Below, in pieces: positions 3,985-63,760 of a DNA stretch of 64,000 nt. Both the position numbers and the translations under genes were made by a program. Every line of letters begins with the position of its first letter. The stretch's first letter is position 1. The notes below the pieces were generated by a model. It saw only the letters and a program-made list of their open reading frames with translations, searched no databases and had not been told where the DNA came from. This DNA comes from a virus, in IMG/VR virus record IMGVR_UViG_3300032245_000762, positions 1-64,000 of that record. One strand, 5' to 3'.

Positions 3985-3989
3985 TTGTT

Positions 3990-4072
3990 AAACAGAAAAC
4001 CCAATCGGAGGCGGATCCAATTGGGTTCTGTCCATTTGCATGGAATGTGTAGGAGCTTAGCTCAACTACACA
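3990..4072 (-). ncRNA. Candidate structured small RNA with anti-RBS loop
   Basis: Read leftward, a promoter (4078-4106) predicts a start at 4071-4072. The roughly 82-nt RNA then folds into three hairpins: TGTGTAG/CTACACA with inner GAGC/GCTC; TCCAT-GCAA-ATGGA (GNRA tetraloop on this strand only); and an 11-bp stem AACCCAATTGG/CCGATTGGGTT followed by TTCTGTTT, a terminator. The 8-base terminator loop is ATCCGCCT. Seven of its bases are complementary to AGGCGGA, the ribosome-binding motif found at about 6403, 59940 and 63754. No ORF on this strand explains the structure. It lies between the lysozyme operon and the next promoter. Function is inferred only. Confidence 0.6.
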
Positions 4073-4077
4073 AATCT

Positions 4078-4106
4078 AGTATAAAATATATTAAATTCAA
4101 AGTCAA
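4078..4106 (-). promoter_or_regulatory. Promoter of the candidate small RNA
   Basis: Read leftward: -35 TTGACT (4101-4106), 17-base spacer, -10 TATACT (4078-4083). The -35 begins four bases after the stop codon of the last gene of the lysozyme operon, so this is a dedicated promoter rather than read-through. Confidence 0.6.
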
Positions 4107-6377: not shown

Positions 6378-6420
6378 AAGACTTCAATCATTTTTTAGAA
6401 AAGGCGGAGAAAAGGTATAT

Positions 6421-18913: not shown

Positions 18914-19804
18914 ATGGCAGCAGGTAAAAAATCAGGTAGAAAGTCTCAGGCATCAAACGACTTTTTAGAGCCACAAGCAGTTACTGACCTAACAGGCACA
19001 GATGTTGGAGCATCACGTCCGTATTTATTAACAGCAAATACTACCTCTGAAGCATCTGCAGCAGGAACTGGTGGAGCAGTAGACTTAGCTTGGACTTTAC
19101 CAGCAAATTCTCCAGCAGCAACATCTTATACAATTACAACAACTCCTTCAACATATACAGAAATAACAGGAAATGCAAATACAACATATAGATTTCAAGG
19201 ATTAGCATCAGGAGTAAGTTACACATTTACAGTAGTAGGAACGAATGCAGCAGGATCTTCAATTGCAACAACTTCATTTTCTGTTACATCAACAACAGTT
19301 CCTCAAGCCCCACAATCTGTATCTGCAACAGCAGGAGTAGACGCAGATACCCTTGCTTGGAGTGCAGGAGCAACTGGTGGTAAAGCTATTTCAAGTTATT
19401 CTTGGACATCTTCAGATGGTAAATCAGCAACTGAAATATCTTCATCCCCAACTAACGTTAGCCAAGAAGCTAATACGACTCAAAACTATACTATTTATGC
19501 TTTAAATGACAATGGAACATCTTTAGGGTCTACAACTGAAGACGCAACAACTCTTCCACCGTCATTCTTTTCCCCACCATACTTCCCACCGTTCTTCCCA
19601 CCGTTTTTCCCACCTTACTTCCCACCATTTTTCCCACCTTACTTTCCACCTTATTTCCCACCGTTCTTCCCACCTTATTTCCCACCGTTCTTCCCACCGT
19701 TCTTCCCACCTTATTTTCCACCGTTCTTCCCACCGTTCTTCCCACCGTTCTTCCCACCGTTCTTCCCACCACGGTTCTTTTCCCCACCATTCTTTACTAG
19801 ATAG
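18914..19804 (+). CDS. Fibronectin-III protein with C-terminal (F/Y)FPP repeats
   Basis: 296 aa. Residues about 25-215 form two fibronectin type III-like beta sandwiches ([20 protein letters not shown]). From residue about 217 the chain is an almost pure repeat of FFPP/YFPP units ending [10 protein letters not shown]. Poly-Pro pairs alternating with aromatic pairs should give an extended, polyproline-II-like rod. The DNA is a matching run of TTCCCACC units. It lies just upstream of prolyl-hydroxylase-like genes, and a second protein with the same tail lies at 27.7 kb. Probably a virion surface protein. RBS AGGAGATAAAAAA. Confidence 0.85.
19558..19795. repeat. Tandem (F/Y)FPP-coding repeat
   Basis: Twelve-base units of the form CCACCGTTCTTC or CCACCTTACTTC repeat about 20 times. 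Only Phe/Tyr choice and third positions vary. A second copy of the array is at about 27898-28165. Confidence 0.9.
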
Positions 19805-27657: not shown

Positions 27658-28170
27658 ATGGTAAAAATACTTGGGAGTAGAAGTGGCAATAGAAAAGTTA
27701 CTGTTCCTGATTTAAATAATTTATTAAGATCAGAGGCAATTAATTTGCTTACTACTAAAAAATTAAAATATACAGAAGCATCAAGTTCAACAAGTAACTC
27801 AGAATTATCTGATAAAGTTTATCAACAGAATATTGCCGCAGAAACATTAGTTATTGCTGGAACAACAATTTCTTTTGAATATTATACATATACTGCTCCA
27901 CCGTTCTTTCCACCTTACTTCCCACCTTACTTCCCACCGTTTTTCCCACCGTTCTTCCCACCTTACTTTCCACCGTTCTTCCCACCTTACTTTCCACCTT
28001 ATTTCCCACCGTTTTTTCCACCTTACTTTCCACCGTTTTTTCCACCTTACTTCCCACCTTATTTTCCACCGTTTTTTCCACCTTACTTCCCACCGTTTTT
28101 CCCACCGTTCTTCCCACCTTACTTTCCACCGTTTTTTCCACCATTTTTCCCACCGTTTTTTACTAGGTAA
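27658..28170 (+). CDS. PASTA-domain protein with C-terminal (F/Y)FPP repeats
   Basis: 170 aa. Residues about 12-75 (VTVPDLNNLLRSEAINLLTT ... ISFEYYTY) form one PASTA domain, a fold that binds peptidoglycan stem peptides or muropeptides in bacterial kinases. From residue 79 the chain is FFPP/YFPP repeats ending PPFFTR, the same tail and terminus as the FN3 protein at 18.9-19.8 kb. This suggests a cell-wall-binding virion protein carried on a polyproline rod. It follows the collagen-like gene by one base. Confidence 0.85.
   Translation: MVKILGSRSGNRKVTVPDLNNLLRSEAINLLTTKKLKYTEASSSTSNSELSDKVYQQNIAAETLVIAGTTISFEYYTYTAPPFFPPYFPPYFPPFFPPFFPPYFPPFFPPYFPPYFPPFFPPYFPPFFPPYFPPYFPPFFPPYFPPFFPPFFPPYFPPFFPPFFPPFFTR
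27898..28165. repeat. Tandem (F/Y)FPP-coding repeat, second array
   Basis: About 22 twelve-base units of the same type as at 19558-19795, with both genes ending in the same PPFFTR codons. Gene conversion or recombination between arrays about 8.3 kb apart is possible. Confidence 0.9.
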
Positions 28171-59522: not shown

Positions 59523-59950
59523 ATAATAAAATACATAAAGTTATTAGAGCTTCAAGATCTAAAGACGAGCTTGTTGCTTGGTGTTATCCAGACAAAAAAA
59601 GAGTTCTTTATTCTTTTGTAGATGTGCAAAAAAATATGGAAACAGCATATACTATCAAACAAGTTGCTGAAATATTAAATAAGCATAAGATAACTATAGA
59701 AGATTATATTTTAGAAGGCAAGGTTAGAAAGCCACAAAAAATTTATTCTATTGGTAACCCAGAAGGAAAGTGGTCTAAATTCATGTTTGATGAAAATGAT
59801 ATATTTGATATTCATGAGCATATATTGGATTCAGGACACTCAAAGAATATTCCTTCAAAAAATGAATTAAGGGCTCTTCTCAAAAACAACATGATATTGT
59901 ATACTAAGACAGGCGAGGGCAAATTTGTCCCAGTATGGAAGGCGGAGTAA
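59468..59950 (+). CDS. MerR-like helix-turn-helix protein
   Basis: 160 aa. Basic N-terminus (MDKQKRRATQKNLRYFFLNN), a small beta part (VAWCYPDKKRVLYSFVDVQK), then YTIKQVAEILNKHKITIEDY-ILEGKV, a MerR/excisionase-type winged helix with FMFDENDIFDIHEHIL. Related proteins lie next to helicase and primase genes of actinobacteriophages, where they probably regulate or organise replication. The overlap with the zinc-ribbon gene upstream is in another frame. Confidence 0.78.
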   Translation: MDKQKRRATQKNLRYFFLNNKIHKVIRASRSKDELVAWCYPDKKRVLYSFVDVQKNMETAYTIKQVAEILNKHKITIEDYILEGKVRKPQKIYSIGNPEGKWSKFMFDENDIFDIHEHILDSGHSKNIPSKNELRALLKNNMILYTKTGEGKFVPVWKAE

Positions 59951-60153: not shown

Positions 60154-60460
60154 TAAAGAGCCATATATTTTAATTTCTCTATATCAAAATTTGTATAAAG
60201 AAAAATATGGTAAAGTTGTTTCTATAAATAAGTTTAGAGAAAAATGGGCCATGCAAGATGTTATAGATAGTGTAGGTTTTGATCGTGCAAAAGATATATT
60301 AGAGTATTATTTTAAAACATCTAAGAGTGGACATCCACTTCAATTCTTTTATTTTAACTTTGATAGGATTGGGCATTTAATGATTGAAATTGAAAAGGAT
60401 AAAGACAATCGTCGTGTCCTAAGAGAAGCAACTAGACAAATGGTTGAGGGCGGAGAATAA
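60143..60460 (+). CDS. Small protein before the helicase, 105 aa
   Basis: 105 aa from GTG 60143. Helical, basic and aromatic (ILISLYQNLYKEKYGKVVSI ... FQYF-like FFYFNFDRIG). Immediately upstream of DnaB (stop overlaps start), so a helicase loader or adaptor is a fair guess, but no AAA+ or known loader motif is present. Confidence 0.65.
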   Translation: MANSKEPYILISLYQNLYKEKYGKVVSINKFREKWAMQDVIDSVGFDRAKDILEYYFKTSKSGHPLQFFYFNFDRIGHLMIEIEKDKDNRRVLREATRQMVEGGE

Positions 60461-63742: not shown

Positions 63743-63760
63743 CAAGTAGAAAAGGCGGAG

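Follow-up and report, generated by a model that had tools for sequence, protein, structure and literature searches.

A candidate trans-acting small RNA of freshwater phages whose invariant terminator loop is complementary to a tag before replication genes

Introduction

Most of the phage antisense RNAs in the literature consulted have either a single phage gene or host genes as targets. The c4 RNA of P1/P7 and the sar RNA of P22 block translation of phage mRNAs in the region of the ribosome-binding site, c4 presumably by pairing through loops, and each RNA has been described on one antirepressor mRNA (ant) of a temperate phage (PMC12197685). PreS of lambda (about 88 nt) and VpdS of VP882 (about 50 nt) are trans-acting phage sRNAs that work during infection. 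Both are Hfq-dependent; PreS has the host gene dnaN as its target, and VpdS affects mRNA levels of the phage as well as of the host (PMC12197685). The sRNAs of the LhrC/RNAIII/RsaE/FsrA type use C-rich loops to pair with the Shine-Dalgarno (SD) region and block initiation; LhrC carries a C-rich motif in its terminator loop as well, and its binding to lapB does not require Hfq (PMC4132741). Phage-wide translational repression is exerted by RegA of T4, which acts at the initiation regions of about 30 mRNAs (PMC3014915).

Here, we analyzed a small RNA gene in 64,000 nucleotides of viral DNA (the window), positions 1 to 64,000 of IMG/VR record IMGVR_UViG_3300032245_000762, a virus contig of 68,110 bases. 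Like PreS and VpdS, the RNA would be a trans-acting phage sRNA, and it is of similar size. It differs from c4 and sar, which each have one ant mRNA, in that a single loop would act on an entire replication regulon by way of a dedicated tag at ribosome-binding sites. No adjacent or overlapping ant target was found; the candidate targets, namely dnaE, the ribonucleotide reductase gene (RNR), dnaB, and small genes, lie far away, and the adjacent genes vary. The LhrC-type sRNAs are chromosomal and their UCCC matches ordinary SDs, whereas the window RNA presents a CCGCC loop and its candidate targets carry the matching C, distinct from ordinary GGAGG sites. The window RNA has no UCCC loop motif and pairs weakly with GGAGGA, although many relatives do carry UCCC in hairpin 1. 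RegA, a protein, has sites that are rich in AU, whereas the effector considered here would be an RNA with an exactly complementary tag.

Results

The RNA gene lies on the minus strand, between two minus-strand ORFs of the window. Its sigma-70-type promoter, TTGACT-17-TATACT, which a preliminary description of this DNA had proposed, is present at 4078–4106 on the minus strand, directly 3′ of the stop (4111) of the upstream minus-strand ORF. The predicted RNA of about 80–85 nt spans 3988–4072 (minus strand), with both ends placed from the promoter and the terminator. When an 88-nt transcript was folded, the three consecutive hairpins already described were obtained with an energy of −37.1 kcal/mol (z = −6.8), which 0 of 200 shuffles reached. 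Hairpin 1 (4046–4072) has a conserved base of the GGUYG...CUCC type (AGUUG...CUCCU in the window), hairpin 2 (4032–4043) carries a GCAA tetraloop, and the terminator hairpin (3992–4031), U-rich on its 3′ side, has the expected 11-bp stem, which a 2-nt bulge separates from another 5 bp beneath it. The terminator loop AUCCGCCU (4009–4016, minus strand like the hairpins), with the 6-nt core UCCGCC, is the proposed seed. About half of the relatives carry a conserved insert in hairpin 1, GUAGCAUCCCAC, that adds a second C-rich stretch (UCCC), for example at L025:2474–2569 on the minus strand; it is absent from the window's shorter hairpin 1.

The plus strand of the locus also folds well, as hairpins would. 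The GNRA tetraloop (GCAA) in the hairpin-2 loop occurs on the minus strand only, as had been noted, and the covariance model R1 scored 68 bits on the minus strand versus 24 on the plus strand. A similar or larger difference in favor of the minus strand was seen in the relatives. Because of this shared bias, the minus strand is the correct strand of the RNA gene as judged by the model. Among 4227 Rfam models, only tRNAs exceeded the gathering score in the window and none did so for the RNA gene; in a lax search with the RNA, the best match (E value of 0.5) was far below the threshold. No annotated phage matched the region in megablast or blastn searches. A pattern scan of GTDB genomes returned 117 stretches, and those inspected resembled chance GC-rich matches without RNA context.

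With RNR as the query, 80 IMG/VR loci (L001–L080) were retrieved. When the window RNA was the sole query, a homologue, promoter included, was found in about 50 of these 80 loci, placed upstream of RNR on the opposite strand. R1, a covariance model of the kind that the preliminary description had suggested for related phages, found the RNA in 61 of the 80, and many of the remaining loci end before the RNA site. Covariation was then assessed on a MAFFT alignment of 60 RNAs that was not fitted to the structure. In this alignment, 94.5% of the cells pair, and 17 of the 21 base pairs show two-sided changes (6/6 in hairpin 1, 4/4 in hairpin 2, and 7/11 in the terminator hairpin). None of 500 shuffles reached any of the five measures, and the signal was lost when the structure was slid along the alignment. 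Covariation of the stems in relatives, which had been named as a test of the proposal, is thus borne out.

The promoter spacing was 17 nt in 155 of 167 homologues. The upstream neighbors, a conserved operon of an endolysin and small genes, were on the same strand in 153 of 170 cases. The downstream neighbors fell into 30 families and 51 of 156 were on the opposite strand; a same-strand downstream gene or pathway that stays constant, as would mark a riboswitch or transcription attenuator, was not found. Since the downstream gene is not conserved, the RNA is not the leader of one gene. A position between two minus-strand ORFs and an intrinsic terminator at the end would suit a cis-regulatory leader or a plain gene-end terminator of the neighboring genes. 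However, the RNA has its own conserved promoter, the gene that follows is variable and often on the opposite strand, and an ordinary terminator loop is not expected to be invariant while its stem changes, so that we consider this explanation barely credible. The locus instead appears to be a separate transcription unit with a promoter and an intrinsic terminator.

In the terminator hairpin, AUCCGCCU was kept in all 52 distinct RNR-derived homologues, a set that was not chosen by loop sequence. The closing pairs are changed in L023 and L041, and the loop between them is unchanged. We also scanned IMG/VR blind to the loop, fixing the stem and allowing any base at the eight loop positions. The loop ATCCGCCT was present in 94 of the 97 distinct hairpins recovered, and the other 3 were unrelated sequence. 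The loop always coincides exactly with the unpaired part of the hairpin. Across nine near-complete records bearing the RNA, each contains just one stable hairpin with a UCCGCC loop, that of this RNA. The loop thus has the features of a seed: it is conserved, unpaired, and complementary to the RBS regions of mRNAs encoded elsewhere in the genome, GGCGGA being the exact complement of the 6-nt core.

GGCGGA had been taken at first for the ribosome-binding motif of the phage. This reading had to be given up: the general motif is AGGAG, which the neighboring genes also use, and GGCGGA marks a subset of genes and is missing before most. In the window, GGAG precedes 24 of the 59 called genes and GGCGGA only a few. 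AGGCGGA occurs 11 times in the window, where 1.75 occurrences are expected, and every copy is on the plus strand. To look beyond the window, start codons were chosen blind to any motif in 11 near-complete phages, and GGCGGA was sought within 30 nt of the start. It was found at the genes for RNR, dnaE, dnaB, and proteins of 67, 68, 121, ~138, and 77 aa. Counted as distinct upstream sequences pooled over all loci, it was present in 43 of 46 for dnaE, 94 of 104 for RNR, 33 of 45 for the 67-aa gene, 27 of 57 for dnaB, 9 of 21 for the 68-aa gene, 9 of 10 for the 121-aa gene, 7 of 7 for the ~138-aa gene, and 5 of 7 for the 77-aa gene. The distinct upstreams of three neighboring control genes contained none (lysin 0/54, primase 0/53, and a 222-aa gene 0/47). 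The motif also recurs in diverged surroundings: among contexts with less than 80% similarity to one another, it is present in 7 of 9 at dnaE and in 6 of 6 at the ~138-aa gene, where some are short leaders right after a −10 box and one has the motif in tandem. With the same genes tagged in relatives and the controls at zero, the earlier idea that the loop targets this motif gains support, and the two are conserved together, the loop being invariant and GGCGGA being kept at the same genes in many relatives. The predicted regulon of the relatives is larger than that visible in the window alone and includes dnaE itself.

GGCGGA is present in at least half of the members of 7 orthologue groups. The other 29 permutations of its letters reach 0–2 groups each, except the overlapping AGGCGG (6 groups). 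For any given 6-nt loop, its complement would fall by chance among the 7 best-conserved of the 4096 hexamers with a probability of about 0.2%. The motif is in the sense orientation 55 times and antisense once; its end is mostly 3–6 nt before the start codon, and a second cluster of positions lies about 18–20 nt from the start, with a separate SD after the motif. A six-base motif that recurs at several gene starts and once in an intergenic hairpin would fit an operator for a phage DNA-binding repressor, or a stoperator; motif and loop would then be the same double-stranded DNA site in opposite orientations. We consider such a site highly improbable in view of the 55-to-1 orientation, the tie of the position to start codons rather than promoters, stems that covary as RNA, and a loop that is always exactly the unpaired part.

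Computed pairing of the loop was −12.9 kcal/mol with GGCGGA versus −7.2 kcal/mol with GGAGGA. The ribosomal anti-SD prefers GGAGGA, and its energy on GGCGGA is −7.0 kcal/mol, so that the motif keeps a weak SD character. With about −13 versus −7 kcal/mol for the loop and the opposite preference of the anti-SD, one changed base pair separates the regulon from ordinary sites. The weak anti-SD pairing and the modal gap of 3–6 nt, which is SD distance, would also be expected if GGCGGA were a variant SD of certain genes and the loop were conserved for protein binding or termination efficiency, the complementarity being a coincidence aided by the likeness of SD and anti-SD. This is unlikely, in our judgment: RNR and the 77-aa gene have a separate SD downstream of the motif, GGTGGA and GGGGGA are not used like GGCGGA, the neighboring genes have AGGAG, and the loop complement would rank so high among hexamers by chance at only the rate given above.

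The reported likeness of the loop to the ribosomal anti-SD core is real, but its pairing with canonical SDs is weak, which makes a general anti-SD decoy less likely. The 3′ end of 16S rRNA reads GGAUC-A-CCUCC, and the loop context GGAUC-CG-CCUC resembles it. The full 11-nt complement, GAGGCGGATCC, occurs nowhere outside the RNA itself in the relatives' loci, and the pairing core is therefore the 6–8 nt loop. The resemblance and the absence of an exact 11-nt complement elsewhere would both be in line with an invariant loop directed at an RNA of the host, or at a protein (ribosomal or RNA-binding), with the phage GGCGGA sites secondary. However, the conserved regulon within the phage accounts for the loop without a host target and pairing with a canonical SD is much weaker, and we hold a host target to be very unlikely.

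Four of the candidate target sites proposed for the window were located, each on the plus strand. AGGCGGA lies at 6402–6408 before RNR (start 6421), where a distinct SD (AAAAGG) follows about 12 nt downstream; at 59940–59946 before the 67-aa gene (start 59950), which has a PHROG match (phrog_5189); and at 63753–63759 before the 68-aa gene (start 63761) that precedes dnaE. The 6-base match before dnaB (start 60460) is GGCGGA at 60449–60454. The dnaE gene itself (PHROG match to phrog_405, DNA polymerase) has GGGAGGA in place of GGCGGA in the window. In three cases (the 67-aa gene, dnaB, and the 121-aa gene), the motif and the coding end of the preceding gene overlap.

RNR was considered as the decisive target and rejected. 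Its GGCGGA is mostly within a local hairpin, CCGC-AAG-GCGG, in which it pairs with the upstream CCGC; this hairpin covaries, and in six loci (L010–L012, L015, L053, and L057) the stem is changed and GGCGGA is lost with the RNA intact. The RNR site is partly explained by the local hairpin. In the window, the motif is present at RNR without the hairpin. L027, L052, and L069 show no RNA over the stretch of the locus that they cover and keep the RNR motif, L069 ending early there. Of three records considered as RNA-less controls, the contigs of G016 and G036 stop before the RNA locus, and G045 is a fragment. Because GGCGGA sits in a covarying hairpin and the Streptomyces relatives have a different one, RNR alone proves nothing. 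A small covarying hairpin just before the RNR SD was observed in most of L001–L080 and L305–L316, its sequence being CCGC-AAG-GCGG in freshwater phages and different in the phages of Streptomyces.

The major capsid protein and RNR of the window phage are 58% and 66% identical, respectively, to those of Streptomyces phages of Stanwilliamsviridae, and the gene order of the replication block is the same as in Paradiddles. Given these similarities, the host is probably an actinobacterium. The carriers of the RNA appear to be a group of freshwater lytic-type actinophages related to Stanwilliamsviridae. The Streptomyces relatives, which are without this RNA, have canonical SDs at dnaB, dnaE, and RNR.

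The Streptomyces phages of Stanwilliamsviridae have an unannotated RNA of their own between a glycosyltransferase gene and the endolysin operon, at about 10,740–10,870 in L305 (Paradiddles) and at matching places in L306–L314; it was seen in 9 of the 10 phages checked at that position. One of its hairpin loops is perfectly complementary, over 8–9 nt, to its own terminator loop, and the two change together between phages (GCTCGCCCC/GGGGCGAGC, GCTGCACCC/GGGTGCAGC, and GATGCGACC/GGTCGCATC). It resembles the window RNA in phage family, neighborhood, promoter, hairpins, and a terminator with a pairing-competent loop. Unlike the window RNA, it has a terminator loop that pairs within the same RNA and varies between phages, and its position is different. 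Homology of the two, suggested by the gene neighborhood and a GGTTGAG stretch, was unsupported, as R1 gave no match in L305–L314. Beside this RNA lies a noncoding block (about 10,460–10,700 in L305) that also occurs in the satellite Mulchroom (OQ784832; L315:3001–3270), with 72–75% identity between the satellite and helper-type phages including MulchMansion, which the Mulchroom record names as host. Its role may be that of a shared regulatory RNA, an origin, or a signal for packaging. Two further plus-strand ORFs of the window, 18914–19804 and 27658–28170, have long repeats at their ends, which are probably tail-associated repeat domains.

Discussion

The RNA gene, its fold, the invariance of the loop, the conservation of the motif, and their exact complementarity are read directly from sequence. 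They point to a trans-acting phage sRNA that likely represses a replication regulon through its terminator loop. A dedicated sRNA gene would be transcribed, and its terminator hairpin would display the invariant loop. The loop would pair, through a 6-bp core UCCGCC:GGCGGA and up to 8 bp, with an operator-like motif in, or just upstream of, the SD region of phage mRNAs. The mRNAs bound would be those of DNA polymerase (dnaE), ribonucleotide reductase, helicase (dnaB), and several small genes. Pairing would compete with the 30S subunit and block ribosome binding, much as reported for LhrC (PMC4132741) and c4 RNA (PMC12197685) and with an outcome like that of RegA (PMC3014915), so that replication functions would be turned down or timed as a set. 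Transcription, pairing in vivo, repression as the direction, and timing are the parts of this mechanism that we infer. Because the invariant loop mirrors a six-letter tag before DNA-copying genes, the RNA probably controls the tagged genes, and probably switches them off or times them as a set.

We also think it fairly probable, with a little less assurance, that this single RNA is an orthogonal anti-Shine-Dalgarno. With one A:U pair between loop and tag exchanged for C:G, it would set the replication regulon of a whole group of abundant freshwater actinophages apart from all ordinary ribosome-binding sites of host and phage, as an RNA counterpart of RegA. If true, a lytic-type phage would here contain a regulon controlled in trans by an RNA, probably in hosts that lack Hfq, as is generally expected for Actinobacteria. 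The code of loop and motif is directly testable, and the motif may serve as a marker for replication genes among the uncharacterized proteins of 67, 68, 77, 121, and ~138 aa. The pair of loop and tag would then constitute a compact natural orthogonal translation switch.
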